Shown: positions 1,236-14,518 of the stretch, piece after piece
Layout of the letters: every line of letters starts with the position of its first letter
Position numbering within the stretch: the first letter of the stretch is position 1
Origin: Bordetella parapertussis
GTDB taxonomy: Bacteria > Pseudomonadota > Gammaproteobacteria > Burkholderiales > SG8-41
Assembly (NCBI GenBank): GCA_945885345.1
Contig: CAMCYP010000008.1
Span: forward strand, 1-64,000
Length of the DNA: 64,000 bases
Direction of reading: 5' to 3'
Translations under genes and position numbers: made by a program
Notes under the pieces: model-generated
What the model saw: the letters and a program-made list of their open reading frames with translations, nothing else
What the model was told of the DNA's origin: nothing
The model's database searches: none

Positions 1236-2249
1236 ATGAGTGCTCAGCCCGCCAAGAACGTCGTGCCATTGCCGCGCCGCGCGAAACATCCGCGTCGTGG
1301 TTCCTGGGGCGGCGCCGTGGACCGGCTCGACGAACGCGTCGCTGAACTGGAGCGGCGCATCGCCGATTTCGACCGGCGTTACGCGCAGATGACCGTGCGC
1401 ACCCGCTTTGGCGCTGCCGGCGGCATTTCGCTGCTGGTGCATGCTTTCGTGGTTTTCGGATTGACCTTCACCGTGCCCGACCTGCGCAACCTGCAGAACA
1501 TGGCGCCGCCGCTGGACGTGGTGCTGGTCAATACCAAATCGCAGGCGAAGCCGAGCAAAGCCGATGCGCTGGCTCAGCATCATCTCGATGGCGGCGGCAA
1601 CACCGACGCCAAACTGCGCGCGAGCAGTCCCTTGCCAGTGGTCAGCCAGGATACGCAGACCACCGAGCTGCAGCAGGCAAAAAAACGCGTTGCTGAACTG
1701 GAACGGGAAGCGCGTCGCCTGCTGGCGCGGGCGGGAGTGAGCCAGGTTGATATTACGCCGGCAAAACCGGCGCCGGAGCCGACGCCGGAAAAAGGGCCGG
1801 CGGTAGACGGCACGGAACTGATACAGCGCAGTCTGGCGATCGCGCGGCTGGAAGCGCAGATCGGCAAGGACTGGAACGCCTATCAGGAGCGGCCGCGGCG
1901 CAAATTTGTCGGCGCCCGTACCCAGGAATACCGCTTTGCGCGCTACATTGAAGACTGGCGGCAGAAAATCGAGCGTATCGGCGAGCTGAATTACCCGCAG
2001 GCCGCACGTGACCAGCGCATTTACGGCAGTCTGATGGCCACAGTATCGATCAAGGCCGACGGCTCGCTGGAGAAGATCCAGATTGACCGCTCCTCCGGCA
2101 ACAAGGTGCTCGATGAAGCCACGGTGCAGATCGTGAAAATGGCCGCGCCCTATGCGGCCCTGCCGCCGGACATCGCACGCGACACCGATGTCCTGCACAT
2201 CACCCGCACCTGGACTTACACGCGGGCGGACAGGCTCGTCAGCCAGTGA
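1236..2249 (+). CDS. TonB-family energy transducer / TonB C-terminal domain protein
   Basis: 337 residues. Residues 1-55 are charged and contain a short heptad-like helix (LDERVAELERRIADFDRRY). A single membrane helix lies at about 61-80. A Pro/Ala-rich periplasmic linker follows, with a predicted coiled coil near 143-165. The C-terminal ~95 residues carry the TonB fold signature (YPQAARDQRIYGSL, then IDRSSGNKVLDEATVQIV). Family members span the inner membrane and transmit proton-motive energy from ExbB/ExbD to outer-membrane receptors; no exbBD is present here, so the partner is unknown. The extended N-terminal coil before the membrane helix is longer than in E. coli TonB. It sits between the RNB nuclease and aroE. 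Confidence 0.85.
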   Translation: MSAQPAKNVVPLPRRAKHPRRGSWGGAVDRLDERVAELERRIADFDRRYAQMTVRTRFGAAGGISLLVHAFVVFGLTFTVPDLRNLQNMAPPLDVVLVNTKSQAKPSKADALAQHHLDGGGNTDAKLRASSPLPVVSQDTQTTELQQAKKRVAELEREARRLLARAGVSQVDITPAKPAPEPTPEKGPAVDGTELIQRSLAIARLEAQIGKDWNAYQERPRRKFVGARTQEYRFARYIEDWRQKIERIGELNYPQAARDQRIYGSLMATVSIKADGSLEKIQIDRSSGNKVLDEATVQIVKMAAPYAALPPDIARDTDVLHITRTWTYTRADRLVSQ

Positions 2250-2272
2250 GCGGTCACCATGAGTGATCCGAA

Positions 2273-3094
2273 TTGAGCGATAGATACGCAGTGATCGGCA
2301 ACCCGGTCGCGCACAGCCAATCGCCGCAGATCCATGCCGAGTTTGCTCAGCAGACTGGACAGGATCTGGTTTATGAGCGTTTGCTGGCGCCGCTGGATGC
2401 GTTTGAGGCTACGGCCAAGCGATTTTTCAGTGAAGGCGGCAAAGGACTGAATGTCACAGTGCCGTTCAAACACGATGCATGGAATATGGTCAACGCCCAT
2501 GCGGGCGTTGCCCTTGATGCCGAGGCGGTGAACACCATCAAATTGGAGGGTGGAAAATTCATCGGGCACAACACCGACGGGATCGGCCTGGTTACTGATC
2601 TTGAACGGAATCTCGGATTCCCGATTGCCGGAAAACGTGTACTGCTAATGGGGGCTGGTGGTGCGACTCGAGGCGTGATGAATCCCATCCTCGAGAAGAA
2701 TCCAAGGCTGATGGTGGTAGCCAATCGTACACTCGACAAGGCGATGAGTCTTGTCAGCCATTTCCAGAAGTTCAAGGATTTTACGTCAGGCGGGATATCA
2801 GCCTCGCCGTACCCGGATCTTGCTGGCTCGAAATTCGATTTGGTCATCAATGCCACATCGGCTGGACTCAGCGGCGAGATGCCATCACTGCCGGAAGGCA
2901 TTTTTGGCAAGGGTGCATTGGCTTACGACATGGTCTATGGCCGCGACACGCCGTTCATGATTTTTGCCCGCAAAGAAGGGGCACGTGCCGTCGATGGCCT
3001 CGGTATGCTGGTCGAGCAGGCCGCAGAATCGTTCTACATCTGGCGCGGCGTGCGACCGCAGACAGCGCCGGTGATTGCGAAACTCCGGGGCTGA
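2273..3094 (+). CDS. aroE: Shikimate dehydrogenase (NADP+)
   Basis: 273 residues; reduces 3-dehydroshikimate to shikimate in aromatic amino-acid synthesis. Substrate-site NVTVPFKHDAW contains the catalytic Lys, NTDGIG the catalytic Asp, and GAGGATRGV is the glycine-rich NADP loop. The start is TTG at 2273. An ATG AGT GAT lies 14 bases upstream but is out of frame and stops after five codons. Codon use is less biased than in the neighbours, with AGA, AGG, several CGA, many GGA, CTA and GTA, which suggests a different origin or local replacement. The gene occupies the usual betaproteobacterial place between the TonB-like gene and mtgA. Confidence 0.93.
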   Translation: MSDRYAVIGNPVAHSQSPQIHAEFAQQTGQDLVYERLLAPLDAFEATAKRFFSEGGKGLNVTVPFKHDAWNMVNAHAGVALDAEAVNTIKLEGGKFIGHNTDGIGLVTDLERNLGFPIAGKRVLLMGAGGATRGVMNPILEKNPRLMVVANRTLDKAMSLVSHFQKFKDFTSGGISASPYPDLAGSKFDLVINATSAGLSGEMPSLPEGIFGKGALAYDMVYGRDTPFMIFARKEGARAVDGLGMLVEQAAESFYIWRGVRPQTAPVIAKLRG

Positions 3095-3164
3095 AATCTG
3101 CGTAATATCGGGGCCGCGGCAGCCGATAAATTCAAAGTTCACGTTTCAAAATTCGCGCAACATC

Positions 3165-3863
3165 ATGCTGAAATCCATCTTTCGCTGGAGCTGGCGCACC
3201 CTGTTGCTGGTGCTGATCGTGCTGGCTGCAGTGCAGTTCTGGTTTCTGGTGCATATCTGGTACTGGAACAGCCATAACCCGGAGTCAACCGCGTTCATGC
3301 GTGCGCGCCTGGAAATCCTGCGCGAAGATAATCCCAAGGCGCGCCTGCGCCAGCAGTGGGTGCCGTATCAGCGCATCTCCGGCCACCTGAAGCGCGCGCT
3401 GGTCGCCGCGGAAGATGCCAAATTTGTCGAGCACCACGGTTTTGACTGGGAAGGCATCCAGAAAGCCTACGAAAAAAATCTGCGCGAAGGCGAGATCGTC
3501 GCCGGCGGGTCAACCATCACTCAGCAACTGGCGAAAAACCTGTTTTTCTCCGGTGAACGGGCATGGTGGCGCAAGGCGCAGGAAGCAGTCATTGCGGTAA
3601 TGCTCGAAACCATCATGAGCAAACGCCGCATATTCGAGATTTACCTCAATGTCATTGAATGGGATGACGGTGTGTTCGGCGCCGAAGCCGCTGCCCGTCA
3701 CCATTACGGCACCACTGCGGCTGCACTGGGCGCTGAACAGGCCGCGCGTCTGGCGGCCATCGTGCCGAGTCCGCGCCGTTACGGCCCGGGCAGCAATACC
3801 GGTTATCTGCAGCGGCGCACCCAGACCATATTGGCGCGCATGAACGGGGCACAGGTACCCTAA
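3165..3863 (+). CDS. mtgA: Monofunctional biosynthetic peptidoglycan transglycosylase
   Basis: 232 residues from the ATG at 3165; the frame is open further upstream, but that part is not conserved and overlaps aroE. A membrane anchor spans about residues 11-30. The GT51 domain follows: EDAKFVEHHGFDW holds the catalytic Glu (83) and GGSTITQQLAKNL (114-126) is the second family motif. The enzyme polymerises lipid II into glycan strands at the periplasmic face of the inner membrane. There is no transpeptidase domain, so it is MtgA rather than a bifunctional PBP1. No strong ribosome-binding site precedes the start; the gap from aroE is 70 bases. Confidence 0.93.
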   Translation: MLKSIFRWSWRTLLLVLIVLAAVQFWFLVHIWYWNSHNPESTAFMRARLEILREDNPKARLRQQWVPYQRISGHLKRALVAAEDAKFVEHHGFDWEGIQKAYEKNLREGEIVAGGSTITQQLAKNLFFSGERAWWRKAQEAVIAVMLETIMSKRRIFEIYLNVIEWDDGVFGAEAAARHHYGTTAAALGAEQAARLAAIVPSPRRYGPGSNTGYLQRRTQTILARMNGAQVP

Positions 3864-3951: not shown

Positions 3952-3979
3952 TTGACCATGACCCCTGCCGCAGCATAAT
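3952..3979 (+). promoter_or_regulatory. Probable sigma-70 promoter of the ior-sox operon
   Basis: TTGACC (3952-3957), a 16-base spacer and CATAAT (3974-3979) match the vegetative consensus at 5 of 6 positions in each box. It lies in the 249-base gap between mtgA and iorA, about 130 bases before the iorA start, and is the best promoter candidate for the six-gene run that follows. Nothing else recognisable is present in the gap. Confidence 0.5.
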
Positions 3980-4112: not shown

Positions 4113-4610
4113 GTGGCCCAATTGAATATCAATGGTCGTTCGCATCAGGTCGATGTCGAACCCGATACCCCCCTGCTGTGGGCGATCCGCGAACAGGTCG
4201 GACTGACCGGCACCAAGTACGGTTGTGGCGTGGCGCAGTGCGGCGCCTGCTCGGTGCACCTGAACGGCGAAGTGGTGCGTTCCTGTTCATTTCCCGTCAG
4301 CGCGATCAAGGCGACAGACAGGATCACGACGATTGAAGGCTTGTCCAAAGACAGTTCGCACCCGGTACAAAAGGCCTGGGCAGCGATCGATGTGCCGCAG
4401 TGCGGCTACTGCCAGTCGGGCCAGATCATGGCTGCTGCCGCATTGCTTGCCAAAAAAGCCAAACCCACGGACAAGGACATCGACGAAGCGATGTCCAATA
4501 TCTGCCGTTGCGGTACTTATCACCGGATCCGTGCCGCGGTGCACATTGCCGCCGGCAACGCCAAGGTGGGCAGTGCCGATGCGCTGGCTTCCGATCAACA
4601 AAACGCCTAA
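4113..4610 (+). CDS. iorA: (2Fe-2S)-binding subunit of an IorAB-type molybdenum oxidoreductase
   Basis: 165 residues, starting at GTG 4113 because AGGAG sits 7 bases upstream; the earlier in-frame ATG lacks such a site. An N-terminal plant-type ferredoxin domain shows CGVAQCGAC and a later Cys at RSC. The all-helical second domain has CGYCQSGQ and [10 protein letters not shown] for the second [2Fe-2S] cluster. In the xanthine-oxidase family this subunit passes electrons from the Mo centre to an acceptor. The closest named relatives are isoquinoline 1-oxidoreductase alpha subunits and membrane-associated aldehyde dehydrogenase small subunits; the substrate cannot be deduced. The large subunit follows after 15 bases. 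Confidence 0.88.
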
Positions 4611-4625
4611 GACCGGAGAATAAAA

Positions 4626-6830
4626 ATGAAAAATACGATCTCCGGCGAACTGCCGAAAATTTCCCGTCGCAAATTTCTGGTCGCCAGCGCTGCCGCCGGT
4701 GGCGGCCTTGCACTGGGCTTCAATCTTCCCTTCGGTGCCGGCACCGCTGCTGCGCAAAGCGCCGCCGATGCTGCTGAAGTGAATATCTGGGTGGTGGTCA
4801 AACCTGACGACACCTGCATGATCCGTATTGCGCGCGCCGAGATGGGCCAGGGCACGATGACCGGTCTTGCGCAACTGGTGGCTGAGGAGCTGGAGTGCGA
4901 CTGGAAAAAAGTCAAAACCGAACAGATCACCGCCGGCCAGAACCTGGCGCGCAAACGGGCCTGGGGCGACATGTCCACGGCGGGCAGCCGCGGTATCCGC
5001 ACGTCCCACGATTACGTGCGTCGTGGCGGCGCGGCAGCGCGCATGATGCTGATGCAGGCGGCCGCCAATGAATGGAATGTTCCGGTGACTGATCTGCAGG
5101 TGGCCAACGGCGTGATTACCCATGCCGGTTCTGGCCGCACCACCAGTTACGGCAAGGTCGCCACTGCGGCGGCGAAGTTGACGCCGCCGGATCCGAAGAG
5201 CATCAAGCTCAAGGACGTCAAAGACTGGAAAATCGCCGGTAAACCGCTGCGCCGCCTCGATACTGCAGACAAACTCAATGGCCAGAAAATTTATGCCATC
5301 GATCTGAAGATGCCGGGCATGCTGCACGCCACGGTGAAGGACTGCCCGGTGTTTGGCGGCAAACTCACCAGCTTCGATGATTCGAAAGTGAAGGGGATGC
5401 CGGGCGTCAAGGGTGTGATGAAAATCAATGACACCACGGTGGCAGTGGTTGCCGATACCTGGTGGCGGGCGAAAAAAGCGATGGACGCGCTGCCCATCGT
5501 CTGGGATGAAGGCCCCAATGCCAAGGTCAACAGCGCGTCGATTGCCGAGCACCTGAAGAGCGGTCTGACGGGCAGCGATGCGTTTGCCGACATCGATACC
5601 GGCGACGCACCGAAGGCGATTGCCGCGGCTGCGAAGAAAATCGAGGCGGTGTACAGCGTACCGTTCACTTCGCACACACCGATGGAGCCGATGAACTGCA
5701 CGGTGAAACTGTCACCGGACAAGGCCGAGATCTGGATCCCGACGCAAAGCCTGGAAGCTTCGCTGGCCGCATTGTCCAGCGCTTCGGGCCAGCCGCTGGA
5801 AAAATGCGAAGCCTATGTGATGGATCTGGGCGGAGGTTTTGGCCGGCGCATCGGCAACCAGGACGTGGTGCGGCAGGGCGTGGCCATCGCCAAGGCCTTC
5901 CCCGGCACGCCGGTGAAAATGGTGTGGACCCGCGAAGAGGATCAGGCGCATGATTTCTACCGGCCCATCGCACAATGCCGTCTGTCCGCAGGCGTCGACG
6001 AAAAAGGCAATCTTGCCGGCCTGCATCTGCGGGTATCGGGTCAGTCGATCAACGCGTTTGCCAATCCGGCGGCGATCAAGGATGGCAAGGACAAGCGGCA
6101 GTTGCAGGGCCTGTGGCCGGAGCCGAACGACGCGCAGATCGGTTACACCCACGCCAACTGGCGTACCGAATACGCGATGCGCAACACGCATCTGCCGGTC
6201 GGCCCGTGGCGCGGCGTCAACACCAACCAGAACGGCATTTTCCTCGAGTGCTTCATGGACGAGGTGGCGAAGCTGGCGAACCGTGACCCGCTGGAGTTCC
6301 GCCGTTCGCTGATGAGCGAACGTCCGAAACATCTGGGCGTGCTCAACGCCGTGGCCGAGAGAGCCGGCTGGGGCAAACCGCTGCCCAAGGGCGTGTACCG
6401 CGGCATTGCGCAGTTCATGGGTTACGGCAGTTATTCCGCCGCAGTGGCCGAGGTTTCAGTCAGTCCGAAGGGCGAGGTCAAGGTGCATCGCTGCGTGTTC
6501 GCGCTGAATTGCGGCAACGTTGTCAATCCCGACCAGACGGCGGCGCAGATCGAGGGCTCGGTGGCTTACGGCATGACCACGCTGCACAGCGAAATTTCGG
6601 TGGATAACGGCCGGGTGGTGGAAACCAATTTCCACAATTTCCGCGTGATGAAGATCACCGAGATGCCCAAGGTCGAAGTCATACTGCCGCTGACCCATGA
6701 TTTCTGGGGCGGCGTCGGCGAGCCGACCATCTGCGTGGTGGTGCCGGCGATATTGAATGCGGTTCACGCCGCAACCGGGAAACCGGTGCGCAGCCTGCCG
6801 TTGTCCAAGCAGGGCCTGACACTGGTCTGA
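4626..6830 (+). CDS. iorB: Molybdopterin-binding catalytic subunit of an IorAB-type oxidoreductase, Tat-exported
   Basis: 734 residues with a GGAG site before the ATG. The N-terminus has a twin-arginine signal (SRRKFLVASAAAGGG, arginines 14-15), so the folded Mo enzyme should be periplasmic. LGGGFGRR is the Mo-pterin contact motif, and GGVGEP near the C-terminus holds the catalytic Glu of the xanthine-oxidase family. Relatives are isoquinoline 1-oxidoreductase beta and quinone/cytochrome-linked aldehyde dehydrogenases. It forms a pair with iorA, and soxX begins 9 bases after its stop, so cytochrome c could be its electron acceptor (inference). There is no FAD subunit. The actual substrate is unknown. 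Confidence 0.9.
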   Translation: MKNTISGELPKISRRKFLVASAAAGGGLALGFNLPFGAGTAAAQSAADAAEVNIWVVVKPDDTCMIRIARAEMGQGTMTGLAQLVAEELECDWKKVKTEQITAGQNLARKRAWGDMSTAGSRGIRTSHDYVRRGGAAARMMLMQAAANEWNVPVTDLQVANGVITHAGSGRTTSYGKVATAAAKLTPPDPKSIKLKDVKDWKIAGKPLRRLDTADKLNGQKIYAIDLKMPGMLHATVKDCPVFGGKLTSFDDSKVKGMPGVKGVMKINDTTVAVVADTWWRAKKAMDALPIVWDEGPNAKVNSASIAEHLKSGLTGSDAFADIDTGDAPKAIAAAAKKIEAVYSVPFTSHTPMEPMNCTVKLSPDKAEIWIPTQSLEASLAALSSASGQPLEKCEAYVMDLGGGFGRRIGNQDVVRQGVAIAKAFPGTPVKMVWTREEDQAHDFYRPIAQCRLSAGVDEKGNLAGLHLRVSGQSINAFANPAAIKDGKDKRQLQGLWPEPNDAQIGYTHANWRTEYAMRNTHLPVGPWRGVNTNQNGIFLECFMDEVAKLANRDPLEFRRSLMSERPKHLGVLNAVAERAGWGKPLPKGVYRGIAQFMGYGSYSAAVAEVSVSPKGEVKVHRCVFALNCGNVVNPDQTAAQIEGSVAYGMTTLHSEISVDNGRVVETNFHNFRVMKITEMPKVEVILPLTHDFWGGVGEPTICVVVPAILNAVHAATGKPVRSLPLSKQGLTLV

Positions 6831-6838
6831 CCGGCGGC

Positions 6839-7279
6839 GTGCGTTTTCCGGGCTGGAGTCTGCTGTTTGCCGCGATGGCTGGTTGTGCCGTCGCGGTGCC
6901 CGGGGAACTGGCGCCTTACCGGGTCGAGGGCGACGCCATTCGCGTGCCGCTGGCATCCGTTGCCGGAGATGCGGCCCGCGGCAGGACGGTGGTGATGGGG
7001 CGCGAAGCCAACTGCCTGCTGTGTCATGCAGTCCCTGAAACAGGGGTGCGTTTCATGGGCAGCATCGGGCCACCGCTGTCCGGCATCGGCGCACGCTTGT
7101 CGGCGGGACAGTTGCGCCTGCGCGTCGTCGATCAATCGCGCCTCAACCATGATACGGTGATGCCTTCGTATTACCGGGTTGAAGGCCTGGTTCGCGTGGC
7201 CCCGGCCTATCAGGGCAAACCGGTGCTGAGCGCCGGCCAGATTGAAGACGTAGTCGCTTTTCTGCAGACGCTGCAATAG
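6839..7279 (+). CDS. soxX: SoxX-type monohaem cytochrome c
   Basis: 146 residues from GTG 6839, 9 bases after iorB. A short hydrophobic signal segment is followed by one haem site, CLLCH. The stretch SRLNHDTVMPSYYRVEGLVRVA, conserved in SoxX, contains the Met that should ligate the haem iron. SoxX pairs with SoxA in the periplasm to attach thiosulfate oxidatively to the SoxY cysteine and feed electrons to cytochrome c. Its place directly behind a Mo-hydroxylase gene rather than behind sox regulators or soxVW is unusual. Confidence 0.85.
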   Translation: MRFPGWSLLFAAMAGCAVAVPGELAPYRVEGDAIRVPLASVAGDAARGRTVVMGREANCLLCHAVPETGVRFMGSIGPPLSGIGARLSAGQLRLRVVDQSRLNHDTVMPSYYRVEGLVRVAPAYQGKPVLSAGQIEDVVAFLQTLQ

Positions 7280-7296
7280 GGAATCCGCAAGACCGC

Positions 7297-7746
7297 ATGG
7301 CCACCCGTCGCCGTTTCCTGTTTACCTTGAGCGCGCTCGCCGGCTTCACGCTGGTGGACGGGGCGCATGCGCAGGCGTCCCCCGAGCGCGAAGCCCTGTT
7401 GCGCCAGATCACCGGTGGTGCCGTGGTGCGGCCGGGGCGGGTGACATTCGATACGCCGGAACTGGCGGACAACGGGCATGCAGTGCCGGTGCGCATCGCC
7501 GTCGACAGCCCGATGACTGCGGCCGATCATGTGCGCAGCATTACCGTGATCGCCGAGCGCAATCCGCGGCCGATTGTCGCCACATTCACCCTGGGCCCGC
7601 ATTCGGGCCGCGCCCAGGTCGTCACCCGGATCCGGCTGGCCGACAGCCAGGAAGTGCTCGCACTGGCGCAGCTGTCCGATGGTTCTTACTGGTCGGGGGG
7701 CGCCCGCGTGGTCGTCACCGAACTCGCCTGCCTGGAGGGCGGCTGA
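7297..7746 (+). CDS. soxY: SoxY-type sulfur carrier with atypical C-terminal tail
   Basis: 149 residues with an Arg-rich signal sequence (ATRRRFLFTLSALAGF), possibly Tat-type, ending near AHAQA. The body fits the SoxY immunoglobulin-like domain. Canonical SoxY ends in a flexible GGCGG whose Cys carries the sulfur intermediate. Here the protein ends TELACLEGG: the single Cys is kept but is fifth from the end and flanked by Ala and Leu-Glu. The reading is clear in the DNA (GCC TGC CTG GAG GGC GGC TGA), with no sign of a frameshift. It is followed two bases later by soxZ. The carrier role is likely; the changed arm may alter partner recognition. Confidence 0.82.
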   Translation: MATRRRFLFTLSALAGFTLVDGAHAQASPEREALLRQITGGAVVRPGRVTFDTPELADNGHAVPVRIAVDSPMTAADHVRSITVIAERNPRPIVATFTLGPHSGRAQVVTRIRLADSQEVLALAQLSDGSYWSGGARVVVTELACLEGG

Positions 7747-7748
7747 GC

Positions 7749-8069
7749 ATGCTCGCCCGGATCGAAGTGCCGCGGCAGGCGAAACGCGGGGAGATCATCC
7801 TGCTGCGCATCGCCATCCAGCATCCGATGGAAACCGGATACCGGCTCGACAATTTCGGCCGGCGCATTCCGAAGAATGTCGTCAACAACCTGACATGCCG
7901 TTATAACGGCGTCGAAGTGTTTCGCGCTGAAATGGGCTCCGGCATATCGGCGAATCCGCTGTTGCAGTTTCATGCGGTGGCCGAGGCCAGTGGTGAATTC
8001 GTGTTCGAGTGGGTGGACGATTCCGGCCAGCGCGGTTCCGAGCGGGCGGCGATCACCATAAGCGCTTGA
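7749..8069 (+). CDS. soxZ: SoxZ, partner of the SoxY sulfur carrier
   Basis: 106 residues, the usual size. It starts at ATG 7749, two bases after the soxY stop. Opening ARIEVPRQAKRGEIILLR and the HPMETGYR segment are typical of SoxZ, which forms a heterodimer with SoxY in the periplasm. It has no signal peptide of its own and is expected to be exported with SoxY. Its stop overlaps the proposed soxA start, which suggests translational coupling. Confidence 0.88.
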   Translation: MLARIEVPRQAKRGEIILLRIAIQHPMETGYRLDNFGRRIPKNVVNNLTCRYNGVEVFRAEMGSGISANPLLQFHAVAEASGEFVFEWVDDSGQRGSERAAITISA

Positions 8070-8848
8070 ATTTTCTGCCGCCCATCGCCCTGATGTTTGC
8101 GGCAACGCTGGGGAGCGGCGTATTTGCAGCCGAACCGCAGCGCCTGCCGGCTCCCAAATCCGGCATCGCATATGCCGGCGCCGATATCCGCGCGATGCAG
8201 GCCGATGATTTCGCCAATCCCGGCATGCTGTGGGTCGCGCGCGGCGAAAAACTGTGGAATACCCCGGCAGGCCGCAGCAACAAATCCTGCGCCACCTGTC
8301 ATCAGGATGCGTCGACCAGCATGAAAGGCGTTGCAGCGCGCCATCCGCGCATCGATGCCGCAACGGGCAAGGTCATCAACATCGAAGGCCGCATCAACGC
8401 CTGTCGTGAACGGCAGCAGGCCGCGGATCCGCTGCAGTACGAATCGGAAGAGTTGCTGGCGCTGACCGCGTATGTGGCGCACCAGTCGCACGGCATGCCG
8501 GTTGCCGTGGTGGCGGATGCGACCAATCGTCCGCACCTCGAACGCGGCCGCGACATCTATTACCGTCGCCAGGGCCAGATGAACCTGGCCTGCACGCATT
8601 GCCACGAACAGAACGCGGGCCGCAAACTGCTCGCCGATACCATCAGCGAAGGCCATGGCAATGCCTATCCGGCCTATCGCCTGGAATGGCAGGCCATCGG
8701 TTCGCTGCAGCGGCGGTTGCGCGCCTGTTATTACGGCGTGCGCGCAGCGATGCCGGCGTTTGGTTCGGATGAGTTGCTGGATCTGGAGCTGTATCTCGCC
8801 CGGCGCGCCACGGGATTAACCGTGGAAACGCCGGGCGTCAGACGTTAG
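8066..8848 (+). CDS. soxA: SoxA dihaem cytochrome c (L-cysteine S-thiosulfotransferase subunit)
   Basis: 260 residues if it starts at TTG 8066, which overlaps the soxZ stop and gives a complete signal peptide ending at FAAEP; ATG 8093 is an alternative. Two haem sites are present, CATCH and CTHCH. The conserved cysteines INACRERQ and RACYYGVRA are also there, the latter being the expected persulfide ligand of the active haem, and the ending ETPGVRR is a family hallmark. With SoxX it would join thiosulfate to SoxY. soxB, normally next, is absent: the gene meets kup tail to tail with three bases between stops. Confidence 0.88.
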   Translation: MNFLPPIALMFAATLGSGVFAAEPQRLPAPKSGIAYAGADIRAMQADDFANPGMLWVARGEKLWNTPAGRSNKSCATCHQDASTSMKGVAARHPRIDAATGKVINIEGRINACRERQQAADPLQYESEELLALTAYVAHQSHGMPVAVVADATNRPHLERGRDIYYRRQGQMNLACTHCHEQNAGRKLLADTISEGHGNAYPAYRLEWQAIGSLQRRLRACYYGVRAAMPAFGSDELLDLELYLARRATGLTVETPGVRR

Positions 8849-8851
8849 TTT

Positions 8852-10735
8852 TTAAATCTCGATCCGCGTGCCCAGCTCAATCACGCGGTTCGCTGGCAGG
8901 TGGAAATACTCGACCACGCTGCTGGCGTTGCGCGCCATGGTGGCAAACAGGCGTTCCCGCCACAGCGCCATGCCGTCGTCACCGATGACCGGGATCAGCG
9001 TTTCGCGGCTGAGGAAAAACGAGGTTTCCATCATCTCGAAACCGAGCCCGTGTTCGCAGCATAGCGCAAGCGTCTGCGGCACATCGACCGGATTCTTGAA
9101 ACCGAAGCGCATGCGGATGCGCCAGCAGCCGTTACCCAGCGCTTCCACAGTGACTCGTTCGTTGAACGGCACCCAGGGTGTGTCGGCAATGGTTACGGTG
9201 AGGAAGATCACGCGTTCATGCAGCACCTTGTTGTGCGCGAGGTTGTGCAGCAGCGCATGCGGCACAGCATTGGCATCGGCCACCATGAACACCGCCGTGC
9301 CCGGGACACGGTGCGGCGGATATTTGAACAGTGAAGCCAGAAAATCCTGTACTGGAATGGCCGAAGTCTGCAGGCGCTTGGCGAGAATGCGCCGGCCATG
9401 CCACCAGGTCAGCATCACGATGAACATGATCGCGCCCAGCGCCAGCGGGAACCAGCCGCCATCGTCGATCTTGAGCAGGCTCGACGAGAAAAACGCCAGG
9501 TCGAGCAGAATGAAAAAGCCGGTGGCGGCAATGCACAGCGCGAGGTTATAGCCCCAGACCTTGCGGATCACGAAAAACGTCAGAAAGGTGGTGACCAGCA
9601 TGGTGCCGGTGACGGCGACGCCGTAAGCCGAAGCGAGGCTGCTTGACGAACCGAAGCCGAAGACGGCGGCGAGCACGATTGCCAGCAATATCCAGTTCAC
9701 CGCCGGCATGTAGATCTGGCCCATTTCCTTGGCCGAGGTCTGTTGCACGCTCATGCGTGGCAGATAACCGAGCTGGATCGCCTGACGCGTCAGCGAGTAG
9801 GTGCCGGAGATGGTCGCCTGCGACGCAATCACTGTGGCCGCGGTGGCCAGCGCCACCATCGGATACAGCGCCCACTCCGGATACAGCAGGTAAAAGGGGT
9901 TGCTGACGGACTTTGGATTGACGATCAGCAGCGCGCCCTGGCCGAGGTAATTCAGCACCAGCGCCGGGAATACCAGGCCGAACCACGCGAGGCGGATGGC
10001 TTCCTTGCCGAAATGGCCCATGTCGGCATACAGCGCCTCAGCGCCGGTAAAGGCCAGCAGCACCGCGCCGATCACGACAAAGGATGCGAAGCCGTGCTGT
10101 GTGACAAAAGCGATGGCGTGCGTCGGAATGAAGGCCTGCAGGATCACGGGGGCTTGCAGGATGCCATGGATGCCGGCTGCACCAAGCGCGAGAAACCACA
10201 GGATCACGATCGGGCCGAACAGCAGGCCGACGCGCGCGGTGCCGTAACGCTGGAACGAGAACAGCGCGATCAGTACGCCGGCGGATATTGGCAGCACATA
10301 AGGTTTGAAGGTGGTGGTTCCGATCTCCAGGCCTTCGACGGCGGAGAGCACGGATATCGCGGGGGTCAGCACCGCGTCGCCGTAGAACAGCGCAGCACCA
10401 GCCAGCCCGGCGAACAGGATCGCTGCGTATTGACGGGGATGGTCTTTGCAGGCGGAGGAGGCCAGTGCCAGCAGCGCCATGATGCCGCCCTCGCCGCGGT
10501 TGTTGGCGCGCATGATCAGCACCACGTATTTCAGCGACACCACCAGCATCAGCGCCCAGAAAATCGCCGAGATGCCGCCGAGGATGGTTTCTGTTTCGAG
10601 GGGGATGCCGTGGTCCGGGGAGAAGGTTTCCTTGACGGCGTAGAGCGGGCTGGTGCCGATGTCGCCGTAGACGATACCGAGGGCGGCGAGGGTGAGTGCT
10701 GCACGGGACTGCTTCAGACGCGGGTCGGTATCCAT
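8852..10735 (-). CDS. kup: Kup-type low-affinity potassium:proton symporter
   Basis: 627 residues, the normal length. The signature ALGIVYGDIGTSPLYA is near the N-terminus, followed by about twelve membrane helices (residues ~15-440) and a ~180-residue cytoplasmic tail. It takes up K+ across the inner membrane together with H+. A GGAGG site precedes the ATG. It is monocistronic and convergent with soxA. The 187 bases upstream are AT-rich and hold no gene. Confidence 0.95.
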   Translation of the reverse strand: MDTDPRLKQSRAALTLAALGIVYGDIGTSPLYAVKETFSPDHGIPLETETILGGISAIFWALMLVVSLKYVVLIMRANNRGEGGIMALLALASSACKDHPRQYAAILFAGLAGAALFYGDAVLTPAISVLSAVEGLEIGTTTFKPYVLPISAGVLIALFSFQRYGTARVGLLFGPIVILWFLALGAAGIHGILQAPVILQAFIPTHAIAFVTQHGFASFVVIGAVLLAFTGAEALYADMGHFGKEAIRLAWFGLVFPALVLNYLGQGALLIVNPKSVSNPFYLLYPEWALYPMVALATAATVIASQATISGTYSLTRQAIQLGYLPRMSVQQTSAKEMGQIYMPAVNWILLAIVLAAVFGFGSSSSLASAYGVAVTGTMLVTTFLTFFVIRKVWGYNLALCIAATGFFILLDLAFFSSSLLKIDDGGWFPLALGAIMFIVMLTWWHGRRILAKRLQTSAIPVQDFLASLFKYPPHRVPGTAVFMVADANAVPHALLHNLAHNKVLHERVIFLTVTIADTPWVPFNERVTVEALGNGCWRIRMRFGFKNPVDVPQTLALCCEHGLGFEMMETSFFLSRETLIPVIGDDGMALWRERLFATMARNASSVVEYFHLPANRVIELGTRIEI

Positions 10736-10922: not shown

Positions 10923-11480
10923 TCACGGGGCCGGTGCGGCGCTTGCGGCCGAGGCCATGCGGGCAAAGTTTTCGTAGAGATCCCAGTCGAGCGGATGGGC
11001 TTCCAGCGTCTGCGGATGCCACATCCGCCGCGGCAGTTCGAAAATGTCACCACCGTAGACATGCAGCCCGATGGCCGGCGTGTCGCCGAGGCATTCCGCG
11101 ACATGCGCTGTCTCCGCGCGCATGTTCAGTATCGCGCCCCTGGTCAGTGTGACCTCGCTGGCGCGGCGCAGCTGACTGTTGTCGGTGCGGTAAAGCGTGT
11201 TCTTTTCCTCGCCAGACAGCAGCAGGATGGAAGCCCAAGTGCCGTGATCATGCGGCGGCGTGCGCCGGCCATTGGGAAAGCGCACCTTGAGCAGGGTCAG
11301 GTCGGGCGAGCGGTAAAACACCTGGCGCGCATTGCCGCCGGTGCCGGAAACATAACTCAGCGCCTGTTCGATTTCTTCGACCCGGGTGCTGAGGCTTTGC
11401 AGCACTTCGCGCATTGCCGCCATCGGGTCGGCACTTTCGCGGGCCTGGGCGCAGCGGGTGACGAGTTCATGTACTTTCAT
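10923..11480 (-). CDS. Cupin thiol dioxygenase (cysteine/3-mercaptopropionate dioxygenase family)
   Basis: 185 residues. The iron-binding His pair appears in PPHDHGTWA (H77, H79) and the third ligand in ETAHVAEC (H126), the pattern of the cysteine dioxygenase family. Members add O2 to a small thiol to give a sulfinate. The bacterial group includes both cysteine and 3-mercaptopropionate dioxygenases, which short motifs do not separate. It is transcribed downstream of, and separately from, the kor operon. With the nearby sox genes it gives this stretch a loose sulfur theme, which may be coincidental. Confidence 0.82.
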   Translation of the reverse strand: MKVHELVTRCAQARESADPMAAMREVLQSLSTRVEEIEQALSYVSGTGGNARQVFYRSPDLTLLKVRFPNGRRTPPHDHGTWASILLLSGEEKNTLYRTDNSQLRRASEVTLTRGAILNMRAETAHVAECLGDTPAIGLHVYGGDIFELPRRMWHPQTLEAHPLDWDLYENFARMASAASAAPAP

Positions 11481-11613: not shown

Positions 11614-12669
11614 TCAGCGCAACCCGGCGTTGATTTTCTCCAGCGCAGCCGAACCCGGGCACAGCTCTTTCGTGCCAAGCTGATTCAGCGGCGTCTGCAC
11701 CGTATTGATGTACTGATGCAGATCAGCCGCTTCCGACGCGAGGTAAAGCAGACCAGTGACGATCTCGCCGGCTGCCGCGCGTTCCTGCACATGGTTCATC
11801 GCCTTGATGCGGTCCGTCGGATCGTAATCGGGCGCCAGTTTGCGCAGTTTGAGCATCGAACCGTCGTGCTGGGCGATGTTGATGACTTCACCCGGGGCGT
11901 AGTCGGCGGTGATTTCGTCGCGGCTTTCGATGAAGTCGAGGCGGTTCACTGCGGCATTGTGCTGGCGCACGTAATCGTAGGATTTGGTCGAACCTTCGTG
12001 GTTGTTGAAGGCGACGCAGGGCGAGATGACGTCGATGAACGACGGGCCCGGATGTCTGATCGCGGCCTTGATCAGCGGCACCAGCTGTTTTTTGTCGCCG
12101 GAGAAAGCGCGGGCAACGAAGGTGGCGCGCAGCAGCAGTGCCATGCCGACCAGATCCACTGGTTCGTCCGGATTCAGCACGCCGCGTTTGGATTTGGAGC
12201 CCTTGGTCGCGGTGGCGGAGAACTGGCCCTTGGTCAGGCCGTAAACGCCGTTGTTTTCGACGATGTACACCATGTTTACGCCGCGGCGGATGCAATGCGC
12301 GAACTGGCCGAGGCCGATCGACGCCGAGTCGCCGTCACCGGAAACACCCAGATAGAGCAGCTCGCGGTTGGCGAGGTTGGCGCCGGTCAGCACCGATGGC
12401 ATGCGGCCGTGCACGCTGTTGAAGCCGTGCGAGTTGCCGAGGAAATAGTCCGGCGTTTTGGACGAGCAGCCGATGCCCGACAGCTTGGCGACGCGGTGCG
12501 GCTGGACGTCCAGTTCCCAGCAGGCCTGGATGATGGCCGCCGAGATCGAATCGTGGCCGCATCCGGCGCACAGCGTGGAAATCTTGCCCTCGTAATCGCG
12601 GCGGGTGTAACCGGCGGCGTTGTGGGCCAGCGACGGGTGGTGCAGTTTGGGTTTGGCGAGATAGGTCAT
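11614..12669 (-). CDS. korB: 2-oxoacid:acceptor oxidoreductase, beta (TPP) subunit
   Basis: 351 residues. The thiamine diphosphate motif is GDGDSASIGLGQ followed by VENNGVYGLTKGQ, and CAGCGHDS near residue 34 supplies cysteines of the electron-transfer cluster. The protein matches 2-oxoglutarate:ferredoxin oxidoreductase beta subunits, extended at the C-terminus. It lies 13 bases after korA, in the operon korC-korA-korB read on the minus strand. The substrate is probably 2-oxoglutarate, but other 2-oxoacids are possible. No clear terminator follows the stop. Confidence 0.88.
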   Translation of the reverse strand: MTYLAKPKLHHPSLAHNAAGYTRRDYEGKISTLCAGCGHDSISAAIIQACWELDVQPHRVAKLSGIGCSSKTPDYFLGNSHGFNSVHGRMPSVLTGANLANRELLYLGVSGDGDSASIGLGQFAHCIRRGVNMVYIVENNGVYGLTKGQFSATATKGSKSKRGVLNPDEPVDLVGMALLLRATFVARAFSGDKKQLVPLIKAAIRHPGPSFIDVISPCVAFNNHEGSTKSYDYVRQHNAAVNRLDFIESRDEITADYAPGEVINIAQHDGSMLKLRKLAPDYDPTDRIKAMNHVQERAAAGEIVTGLLYLASEAADLHQYINTVQTPLNQLGTKELCPGSAALEKINAGLR

Positions 12670-12682
12670 GATGTTTTAATTC

Positions 12683-14518
12683 TCAAGATGCTTTTTTCAG
12701 CGGCACCACGCGGTGGGCGCCGGCATGCTGGGAAATCTGGTCGACGATGAAGCGCGCGGTAATCGGCGTGCCGTCGTAATGCAGCAGCGAAATCAGCCGT
12801 GCCGGGTTGATCTTGCCGTCGGTGACCATCAGGGTTTTTAGCTGTGCGTCGCGGTTCTGCTCGATCACGAACACCCAGGGATGGGAGGCAACAAAATCGC
12901 TGAGTTCGTCGGCAAACGGGAAGCCGCGGATGCGCAGTGCGTTGACGTGTATGCCTTTTTCAGAGAGCGTATCCAGCGCTTCCTGCATCGCCGGGCTGGT
13001 CGAACCGTAGAAAATCGCGCCGAAACGTGCCGGTTTCTCCGCCGGATAGAGCAGCGGTTTCGGTACCAGTGACTTCGCGGTCTCGAACTTGCGCATCAGG
13101 CGCTGCATGTTGTCGACGTAATCGGGGCCGGCTTCAGAATACTGCGCATAACGGTTCTTGGTCGTGCCGCGGGTGAAATAACCGCCGCGGGTCGGATGTG
13201 TTCCCGGGTAAGTGCGGAACGGAATGCCGTCGCCATCCACATCCAGGTAGCGCCCGAAGTCCGCGCCGGCGTCGAGCCGTTCGTAGGTCATCACCTTGCC
13301 GCGATCGTATTCCTTTGTGTCATCCCAGGCGTAGGGCCGGCACAGGCGGGTGTTCATGCCGATGTCGAGATCGGTCATCACGAACACCGGCGTCTGCAAC
13401 CGCTCCGCCAAGTCGAACGCCTGCGCCGTCAGTTCAAAACACTCGGTCGGATCTTCCGGAAACAGCAGCACATGCTTGGTATCGCCGTGCGAGGCATAGG
13501 CGCAGGCCAGCAGGTCCGACTGCTGGGTGCGCGTCGGCATGCCGGTGGAGGGGCCGCCGCGCTGCACATCGACCAGCACCACCGGGATTTCGGCGAAGTA
13601 GGCGAGGCCGATGAACTCGGACATCAGCGAAATGCCGGGGCCGGAAGTCGCAGTGAATGAGCGCGCGCCATTCCAGCCGGCGCCGATGGCGATGCCGATG
13701 GAGGCCAGCTCGTCTTCGCCCTGGATGATCGCGTATTTGTTTTTGCCGGATTCGGTATCAGTACGCATCTTCTTGCAGTAGGCAATGAAGGCTTCGGCGA
13801 CCGATGAAGACGGCGTGATCGGATACCAGGCGCAGACCGAAGCGCCGCCATAAACAGCGCCCAGCGCGATCGCGCTGTTGCCGTCGGTGAAAATCCTGTC
13901 GCCGACGTTGTCGGCGCGCTGCAGCTTGATGCCCAGCGGGCAGGGCAGGTGTTTCAGCGCGTAGTCGCGGCCGAGGTGCAGTGCTTTGACGTTGGACTGC
14001 AGCAGCGCTTCCTTGCCTTTGTACTGCTCGGTGAAGAGTTGTTCGATTTCTTTGGGATCCAGTTCCAGCAGCGCCGACAGCGCGCCGACGTAGATGATGT
14101 TCTTGAACAGCTGGCGCTGGCGCGGATCGGTGTAAGTGGTGTTGCAGATTTCCGTCAGCGGCATGCCGATGGGCGTGACGTCATTGCGGAATTTGCTGGC
14201 GGGGAGCGGCTTGGAGTTGTCGTAGAACAGGTAACCGCCGGATTCGATTTCCTTCAGGTCGTTGTCCCAGGTCTGCGGGTTCATCGACACCATCAGGTCG
14301 ACGCCACCACGGCGGCCCTGATAACCCTTTTCGTTGACCCGTACCTCGTACCAGGTCGGTAGCCCCTGGATATTCGACGGGAAAATATTGCGCGGGCTGA
14401 CCGGCACACCCATGCGCAGGATGGCGCGCGCGAACAGTTCATTGGCCGAAGCCGAACCGGAGCCGTTGACGTTGGCGAATTTGACGACGAAGTCGTTGAT
14501 GGCGGTAATTTGTTTCAT
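12683..14518 (-). CDS. korA: 2-oxoacid:acceptor oxidoreductase, fused gamma-alpha subunit
   Basis: 611 residues. The N-terminal ~190 residues are the gamma domain (KFANVNGSGSASANELFARA and GYQGRRGGVDLMV). The alpha pyrimidine-binding domain begins near GNSAIALGAVYGGASVCAWYPITPSSSVAE and contains TATSGPGISLMSEFIGLA. Such fusions are known for KorA. With KorB it oxidatively decarboxylates a 2-oxoacid to its acyl-CoA, and low-potential electrons pass on, here presumably to KorC. A CACAGAG repeat lies between this gene and korC. Confidence 0.88.
   Translation of the reverse strand: MKQITAINDFVVKFANVNGSGSASANELFARAILRMGVPVSPRNIFPSNIQGLPTWYEVRVNEKGYQGRRGGVDLMVSMNPQTWDNDLKEIESGGYLFYDNSKPLPASKFRNDVTPIGMPLTEICNTTYTDPRQRQLFKNIIYVGALSALLELDPKEIEQLFTEQYKGKEALLQSNVKALHLGRDYALKHLPCPLGIKLQRADNVGDRIFTDGNSAIALGAVYGGASVCAWYPITPSSSVAEAFIAYCKKMRTDTESGKNKYAIIQGEDELASIGIAIGAGWNGARSFTATSGPGISLMSEFIGLAYFAEIPVVLVDVQRGGPSTGMPTRTQQSDLLACAYASHGDTKHVLLFPEDPTECFELTAQAFDLAERLQTPVFVMTDLDIGMNTRLCRPYAWDDTKEYDRGKVMTYERLDAGADFGRYLDVDGDGIPFRTYPGTHPTRGGYFTRGTTKNRYAQYSEAGPDYVDNMQRLMRKFETAKSLVPKPLLYPAEKPARFGAIFYGSTSPAMQEALDTLSEKGIHVNALRIRGFPFADELSDFVASHPWVFVIEQNRDAQLKTLMVTDGKINPARLISLLHYDGTPITARFIVDQISQHAGAHRVVPLKKAS

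Follow-up and report, generated by a model that had tools for sequence, protein, structure and literature searches.

A molybdenum hydroxylase paired with an altered SoxY: a recurrent iorAB-soxXYZA module that also occurs in genomes without SoxB

The first 64,000 nucleotides of contig CAMCYP010000008.1 (assembly GCA_945885345.1, order Burkholderiales, deposited as Bordetella parapertussis), here called the window, carry a tight run of six genes on one strand, iorA-iorB-soxX-soxY-soxZ-soxA (4113-8848), in which a two-subunit molybdenum (Mo) hydroxylase, IorAB, precedes a set of sulfur-oxidation (Sox) genes. The name iorAB is a label taken over from a preliminary description of this DNA, and we take it to imply no isoquinoline activity. 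That description had reported six same-strand genes with neither soxB nor soxCD at the locus, as is borne out by the open reading frames (ORFs) and their family matches, and its view that the Mo enzyme and the sox genes form one unit is supported by conserved linkage. The module recurs in Bradyrhizobium, Microvirga, Skermanella, Limnohabitans and Polynucleobacter, often together with a flavocytochrome c sulfide dehydrogenase (FCSD) in Alphaproteobacteria. IorAB and SoxY are linked and co-occur, the substrate arm of SoxY is changed with its cysteine kept, the module is found in genomes free of SoxB, and its catalytic motifs are intact. The altered arm, absent from the preliminary description, is the most telling of these features. 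We tentatively read the six genes as a periplasmic, SoxB-independent Sox variant, in which a sulfur compound bound to SoxYZ would be presented to IorAB.

The six-gene run and the altered SoxY arm

Read 5' to 3', the genes are separated by 15, 8, 17 and 2 bases and end in a soxZ/soxA overlap, which agrees with the earlier values except for the second gap, previously given as 9. From this spacing a single transcript is likely. The promoter match behind which the preliminary description had placed that transcript (3952-3979, upstream of iorA) carries no evidential weight, since the region holds three promoter-like matches against 1.5 expected, which is chance level.

Gene families were assigned by Pfam and NCBIfam profile searches with curated cut-offs, by which SoxX, SoxZ and SoxA of the run are of the thiosulfate type (scores in Table 1). 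SoxY fails TIGR04488, the family of true SoxY (92.6 bits against a cut-off of 125), and passes TIGR04487, the family of the SoxY-related AACIE arm protein; ACLEGG replaces the GGCGG substrate arm and the cysteine is kept. The TIGR04487 margin is thin, with orthologues in the genus falling below the cut-off (for example 163.5 in G375), and the score alone does not separate the tail types, so tails were read individually.

Loci with both iorB and a SoxY number 84, of which L086, L087, L088 and L115 repeat L054, L065, L055 and L062, leaving 80 distinct SoxY on which the counts are based. None of the 80 has a GGCG tail, 79 have a cysteine near the C-terminus (the exception being L134) and 67 end in AC-x-[E/D]; the remaining tails, such as TAGCGL or SSCG, come mostly from loci with iorAB and soxYZ only. 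A SoxY tree of 67 rows from selected loci, made from few columns after removal of the last 12 residues and of two rows with an unreadable tail, unites all 14 GGCG rows and three near variants in a group of 17 (support 97/93), and the other 50 rows fall outside it. In the DNA examined, none of these three variants is linked to iorB. SoxY-SoxZ pairs with SGCGM tails, neither GGCGG nor AC-x-[E/D], are found without the IorB subfamily in two genomes (L317 in G224 and L318 in G570) and are perhaps a further SoxY type.

Pairing of IorB and SoxY in the genus and order

A search for IorB covered 41 genomes (the source and 40 relatives); 31 loci of relatives were fetched, with six SoxY loci as comparators. 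Sox genes lie downstream of iorAB in 18 of the 20 best IorB loci of relatives, the exceptions being L058, which ends within iorB, and L068, with no sox gene in view. Among the other 11 loci, soxXYZA is divergent in L070, L071 holds iorAB-soxYZ, L072 has the order soxY-Z-X-A, and L069 and L073-L079 carry iorAB without sox. A convergent arrangement is seen in L095 and L099. Because the gene orders are rearranged, the link appears to be functional rather than one of inherited position. A chance neighbourhood was rejected in view of conservation across two classes and in several gene orders.

Searching 250 genomes of the order (completeness at least 90) separately for the SoxY family and with an IorB profile returned 50 genomes with an IorB of at least 900 bits and 47 with a TIGR04487 SoxY of at least 100 bits, all 47 lying inside the 50 (Fisher p about 1e-47, without correction for kinship). 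The threshold of 900 bits was chosen once a gap had become visible (924.9, next 837). Sox-linked IorB were the source of the profile, A1, which gives that group an advantage, and no more than four IorB candidates were scored per genome. Altered tails are carried by 52 of the 53 SoxY places at 100 bits or more, the single GGCGG tail belonging to a second copy in G580 that lies 226 kb from iorB. Of these altered SoxY, 47 adjoin iorB, namely 46 within 6 kb of a listed IorB, 44 of them on the same strand, and one on contig C51 of G571. Six more genomes have a SoxY of 75-100 bits without an IorB that reaches 900 bits: in G620 an 835-bit IorB stands 17 bases from a SoxY with the tail SACYDGT, and the tails are GGCGG in G632 and G659, SGCGM in G224 and G570 and unreadable in G510. 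A class-wide TIGR04487 search of 369 genomes, used to pick comparators, gave matches at E 0.001 in 178 genomes, of which one, the source genome itself, exceeded the cut-off. In G571, G645 and G603, each with at least three IorB copies of the 900-bit group, IorAB is multiplied beyond its sox partner.

Breadth of the module and the flavocytochrome c

The preliminary description had proposed a survey of iorAB-sox synteny in other genomes, and conservation of the link extends well outside the genus. In named genomes, the 80 nearest IorB loci were examined with up to 10 kb of DNA on each side. Among them are Bradyrhizobium, Microvirga, Skermanella, Limnohabitans, Noviherbaspirillum and Pseudoduganella as well as metagenome-assembled genomes, some of whose names (Bordetella parapertussis, Chitinophaga) look like misassignments. 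All of soxX, soxY, soxZ and soxA are present at 39 loci, partial sets at 10 (one of which, L134, has only a distant SoxY-like match) and none at 31, and soxB is found at none of the 80. In the 33 genomes to which the 31 empty loci, L106 and L134 belong, TIGR04487 is matched at 1e-20 or better in 31, in 28 of them over the cut-off; 30 of these places were read, Polynucleobacter included, with no GGCG tail and with 27 adjoining iorB or fccB. No TIGR04487 match was obtained in G453 or G456, and in G456 the locus shows soxX at the edge of a contig.

In the class of G408 (Bradyrhizobium), 48 of 289 genomes match TIGR04487 at 1e-30 or better, 16 of them over the cut-off. The 30 alphaproteobacterial loci that were read comprise 20 [AGS]AC tails, nine GGCG tails and one that is unreadable (L290). 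Nineteen of the 20 [AGS]AC-tailed SoxY adjoin iorB or fccB and none adjoins soxB, L266 being cut by a contig end; five of the nine with a GGCG tail adjoin soxB, and one locus of the nine, L287, has fccAB. FccB occurs at 16 of the 80 nearest IorB loci, in 10 of them between iorB and soxX, in five elsewhere (L114, L150, L151, L153, L164) and in L135 downstream of iorB, where the contig ends. In three loci compared, fccB is preceded by a small cytochrome-like (fccA-like) gene; both the flavin-binding and the central domain of FCSD are present in the FccB of L157.

Independence from SoxB

The source genome (G000; 93.6% complete, 5.49% contamination) has a second SoxZ besides that of the operon and holds a contiguous soxY-soxZ-soxA-soxX-soxB set on contig C35 (soxB at 850 bits) and soxC on contig C32 (647 bits). 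The preliminary statement that the system lacks SoxB and SoxCD is thus correct for the operon locus but not for the genome, which has soxB and soxC. A complete soxB/soxCD set elsewhere, which that description had named as a possible refutation, is found in part (soxYZAXB and soxC); the module is nevertheless separate from it and occurs in genomes without SoxB. The SoxY encoded on C35 has the canonical tail VTVGGCG, and only one CxxCH is visible in its SoxA, whereas the operon SoxA has two together with a distal cysteine. The iorAB-soxXYZA genes are a specialised paralogous module, distinct from the C35 set. Two further ORFs adjoin the C35 set (L003, 10493-14591), presumably MoaC-like and M48-protease-like, and alike ORFs flank separate soxXYZA genes in L246, L248, L250 and L252.

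SoxB reaches its cut-off in 26 of 40 genomes selected from those above and is absent in 14. The latter are three Microvirga, Skermanella, Noviherbaspirillum, Pseudoduganella namucuonensis and G425, the relatives G379, G388, G397, G404 and G407 (91-99% complete) and two less complete genomes. The altered type is the sole SoxY in three of 18 genomes searched. SoxA is present in 33 of 34 genomes, the exception, G569, being also without altered SoxY. Twenty iorB-soxY loci were fetched, and because 14 of them show only iorAB and soxYZ in view (L226-L238, L245), the SoxYZ carrier and the Mo enzyme are the core of the module; five have full sets, L239 has soxA without a soxX match, and L233 ends near a contig start.

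Seventeen further regions were inspected, 16 around a SoxA elsewhere in the genomes and one around an extra iorB. Eleven hold soxXYZA with SoxY and SoxZ that best match canonical queries, two of them with soxB in view; the rest are three second sets of the altered type, L258 with soxA and soxX only, L256 with a full iorAB-soxXYZA and L262 with iorAB only. Nine regions of order members (L246, L247, L249-L255) show canonical-type soxXYZA with no soxB in view, and G407 has no SoxB genome-wide. That the six genes are a thiosulfate operon merely missing soxB was rejected as the principal explanation, as SoxB-less genomes carry the module and the linked arm is never GGCGG.

The molybdenum enzyme and the cytochromes

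IorAB has the two-subunit layout of a Mo hydroxylase, one subunit with the Mo cofactor and one with two [2Fe-2S] clusters; ORFs and Pfam reveal no gene for a flavin adenine dinucleotide (FAD) subunit within 4113-8848. A match to the twin-arginine translocation (Tat) signal is above the cut-off in IorB and there is none for IorA. The preliminary account of a Tat-exported xanthine-oxidase-family enzyme without an FAD subunit at the head of the operon therefore stands.

Residue E699 and the GGGFGRR motif are invariant across nine aligned IorB rows, and in the distinct linked loci the catalytic-loop glutamate is found in 79 of 80 and the exact GGGFG in 68 of 80. A tryptophan, W694, sits before the loop bearing this glutamate in all 81 distinct sox-linked IorB and also in 40 of 41 subfamily relatives without adjacent sox genes, while the position is P in seven of eight unlinked homologues, these eight being the only comparators. 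The closest solved chain is PDB 8gy3_C, an aldehyde dehydrogenase large subunit. Its N-terminal RR-x-F, its GGGFGRR loop and its catalytic-loop glutamate align with those of IorB, but it reads KPTGLGEP where IorB reads FWGGVGEP. Among the cytochromes, the CxxCH of SoxX is kept in 59 of 59 distinct loci, and the two haem sites with the distal cysteine of SoxA in 55 of 58, two of the misses being cut by contig ends. An in-frame TAG interrupts iorB of G404 (L067) and the gene is in two pieces in L076 (G390), through sequencing error or decay.

Locus layout and neighbouring genes

Features of the operon and its convergent neighbour are collected in Table 1. The start codon of iorA is GTG, with GAGGAG just 5' of it, and the true start of soxA is probably downstream of 8009. 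Upstream of the run lies mtgA, ending at 3863, and on the other side soxA ends against kup, as had been described.

Table 1. Genes of the iorAB-soxXYZA run and the adjoining kup in the window
Gene	Position	Strand	Assignment and features
iorA	4113-4610	+	Two-[2Fe-2S]-domain subunit of a xanthine-oxidase-family Mo hydroxylase; Fer2_2 3.2e-29, Fer2 1.9e-9
iorB	4626-6830	+	Predicted Tat-exported Mo-cofactor subunit; MoCoBD_1 and MoCoBD_2; GGGFGRR loop; FW-GGVGE loop (W694, E699)
soxX	6839-7279	+	Monohaem cytochrome c; GTG start; TIGR04485 72.8 (cut-off 61)
soxY paralogue	7297-7746	+	Arm VTELACLEGG, not GGCGG; TIGR04487 173.7 (cut-off 172)
soxZ	7749-8069	+	TIGR04490 84.3 (cut-off 76)
soxA	8009-8848 (frame)	+	Two CxxCH haem sites and distal cysteine (RLRACYYGVRA); TIGR04484 241.8 (cut-off 110)
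kup	8852-10735	-	Convergent; abuts the 3' side of soxA

Beyond kup, an ORF of 185 amino acids (10923-11480, minus strand), which we take to be cupin-like, has no Pfam match at E 0.001, is 90% identical in L049 and is present in five of 20 regions fetched from relatives. It is followed by what are presumably the genes of a two-subunit 2-oxoacid:acceptor oxidoreductase (11614-14518, minus strand), of which that at 11614-12669 adjoins the operon again in many genus members. Near the iorAB-soxYZ genes of L231 there is an ORF (1344-3821) whose N-terminus looks like that of an arsenite oxidase large subunit.

Relation to known systems

The gene arrangement is not new, having been published for Starkeya novella in 2013. 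The available part of that paper (PMC3797975) describes soxX2Y2Z2A2F2, a second sox cluster, which comes with a Mo enzyme of the xanthine oxidase family (Snov_1975-1982, the enzyme being Snov_1975/1976) and without SoxB and SoxCD. By the gene content given there, cluster and operon are alike in combining such Mo genes with soxXYZA and no soxB or soxCD, and differ in the flavocytochrome c SoxF2, which the cluster has and the window operon does not. SoxAX and SoxYZ of cluster 2 were undetected in the proteomes, and one SoxF subunit was present at a low level, except on glucose (PMC3797975, same part). The account concerns one organism, and its available part does not treat the SoxY arm, conservation or SoxB-free genomes. 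As far as the literature searched shows, the breadth of the module, the near-exclusive pairing, the arm change, the independence from SoxB and the tryptophan signature of IorB are added here.

The Kelly-Friedrich Sox system resembles the operon in that SoxX, SoxA and SoxZ exceed the family cut-offs and the SoxY cysteine is kept. However, it has SoxB and SoxCD and a GGCGG arm, neither of which is present at the operon locus, and its SoxCD belongs to the sulfite oxidase family, whereas the Mo enzyme of the operon belongs to that of xanthine oxidase. TIGR04487, whose cut-off the operon SoxY exceeds, is a sequence family without a stated function; its pairing with IorAB comes from the present analysis, and no mention of the 'AACIE arm protein' was found in the literature searched. 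TIGR04557, the quinoprotein dehydrogenase-associated SoxYZ carrier, is comparable in that a carrier of the SoxYZ kind is associated with a periplasmic oxidoreductase acting on organic compounds, according to the available part of PMC12997753. It is, however, a fused SoxYZ, and the operon proteins fail its cut-off of 140 (SoxY 66.9 bits, SoxZ 47.8 bits).

In Bradyrhizobium diazoefficiens, only soxY1 of the two soxY genes is essential for thiosulfate oxidation (PMC5748708, available part). By analogy with four other Bradyrhizobium genomes, soxY2 would be of the altered type: each of the four has an altered-tail SoxY, a SoxY about 2 kb from soxB and a longer, probably fused SoxY, and a GGCGG tail was read for the soxB-near copy in one of them. 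A recent SoxY phylogeny discarded sequences without the GGC motif, judging from the available part of PMC11237559, and such a filter would have left out the altered-arm group. SAR324 bins with soxYZ adjoining a flavocytochrome c, and with an isoquinoline 1-oxidoreductase noted separately in the part of PMC4782131 available, are perhaps another instance of the module. A SoxYZ of Advenella is reported to be raised on organic sulfur compounds (PMC5373536, available part); it is not used as evidence here.

Proposed mechanism and alternatives

In the mechanism that we tentatively favour, SoxAX would oxidatively load a sulfur-containing substrate onto the C-terminal cysteine of SoxYZ, and the altered arm, mostly AC-x-[E/D], would hand the conjugate to IorAB and not to SoxB or SoxCD. 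Xanthine-oxidase-family Mo hydroxylases place water-derived oxygen on carbon, and because they do so a carbon-sulfur substrate would be the simplest fit: IorAB would hydroxylate the conjugate with oxygen from water, most plausibly on the carbon adjoining the sulfur of an organic thiol. The oxidised carbon product would then be released while the sulfur stays on SoxYZ, and electrons would exit via c-type cytochromes, as IorAB is without an FAD subunit. In many Alphaproteobacteria the co-encoded FCSD may take the leftover sulfide or persulfide. We infer the order of the steps, the action of IorAB on a carrier-bound substrate and the organosulfur nature of that substrate. The constant core of IorAB and a SoxYZ with a cysteine on its altered arm, and the occurrence of SoxA in every genome tested that has this SoxY, would be expected if IorAB instead of SoxB processed a SoxAX-loaded carrier. 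The preliminary description had offered two roles for the Mo enzyme, electron donation to the SoxAX cytochromes or action on a SoxYZ-bound or organic sulfur substrate, and a bound substrate fits better than mere electron donation, since one branch of the family has iorAB together with soxYZ while soxX and soxA are out of view at the locus. The more specific version, a periplasmic organic-sulfur route in which a SoxYZ with an AC-x-E/D arm passes a covalently bound thiol to the Mo hydroxylase and the C-S bond is cut by hydroxylation without an oxygenase, SoxB or SoxCD, seems to us somewhat unlikely.

Several points speak against a carrier-fed IorAB. The enzyme may act on a free organic substrate, as its nearest solved relative is an aldehyde dehydrogenase, and a two-haem SoxA with a distal cysteine could suit thiosulfate just as well. 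Members of this IorB subfamily can also stand apart from sox genes, as do 31 of the 80 nearest copies in the DNA examined, and in three of the 50 order genomes (G569, G644, G665) such an IorB occurs without altered SoxY; in Alphaproteobacteria, GGCGG-tailed SoxY reach as much as 155.9 bits on TIGR04487. For S. novella, the available part of PMC3797975 reports very low cluster 2 transcripts on glucose, methanol and thiosulfate/CO2, and its authors considered the cluster either without functional significance or important under other conditions.

An alternative that we regard as doubtful makes IorAB a periplasmic aldehyde or N-heterocycle oxidase with SoxX and SoxA as its cytochrome c partners, SoxYZ being minor or vestigial. 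The closest solved structure agrees with it, as does soxX directly 3' of iorB in the window, and putative solute-binding protein ORFs recur near iorAB among 30 loci compared (what we take to be the TctC type in six loci and the branched-chain type in four). However, soxX and soxA are out of view in 14 of the 20 iorB-soxY loci and 79 of 80 SoxY retain the cysteine, so that the carrier and not the cytochrome is the constant neighbour. It is unlikely that the module is an additional sox set serving thiosulfate or sulfide which borrows SoxB and SoxCD encoded elsewhere, even though the source genome has soxB and soxC, its SoxX, SoxZ and SoxA pass the thiosulfate-type cut-offs and FCSD is co-encoded in many alphaproteobacteria. 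SoxB is missing in 14 of 40 genomes, no linked SoxY of 80 has a GGCG tail, and soxB adjoins none of the 80 IorB loci. Moreover, S. novella cluster 2 SoxAX and SoxYZ were undetected and its transcripts very low with thiosulfate included (PMC3797975, available part), and in B. diazoefficiens thiosulfate oxidation needs soxY1 only (PMC5748708, available part), which gains by analogy from the single altered-tail SoxY found besides the soxB-near one in each of the four Bradyrhizobium genomes.

Decidedly unlikely, in our view, is that SoxAX and SoxYZ supply sulfane sulfur to restore the Mo sulfido ligand of exported IorB, the sox genes thus maintaining the Mo enzyme. Enzymes of the xanthine oxidase type do need a Mo=S ligand, and the close pairing with one IorB subfamily and the absence of an adjacent soxB are in keeping with such a role. 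However, in known cases the Mo cofactor is sulfurated before Tat export, and we know of no precedent for periplasmic repair of the Mo sulfido ligand, for which no search was made. A further point for repair is that another SoxYZ-like carrier goes with periplasmic PQQ dehydrogenases (PMC12997753, available part). A cryptic relic without present function is very improbable: the very weak expression that S. novella showed in the conditions examined (PMC3797975, available part) would suit it, but the SoxX haem site (59 of 59), the SoxA pattern (55 of 58) and the IorB glutamate loop (79 of 80) are kept across two classes.

Significance

The presence of soxXYZA is usually read as a sign of thiosulfate oxidation, and such readings could be wrong where the module occurs, in part without SoxB. 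The SoxY tail motif and the IorB tryptophan signature are markers by which it can be found. If the carrier does feed the Mo hydroxylase, this would be, to our knowledge, the first known case of this enzyme family acting on a protein-bound substrate. If the proposal is true, it would constitute a third way of processing SoxYZ-bound sulfur besides SoxB and SoxCD, and the module points to an unexplored periplasmic route of sulfur-compound oxidation.

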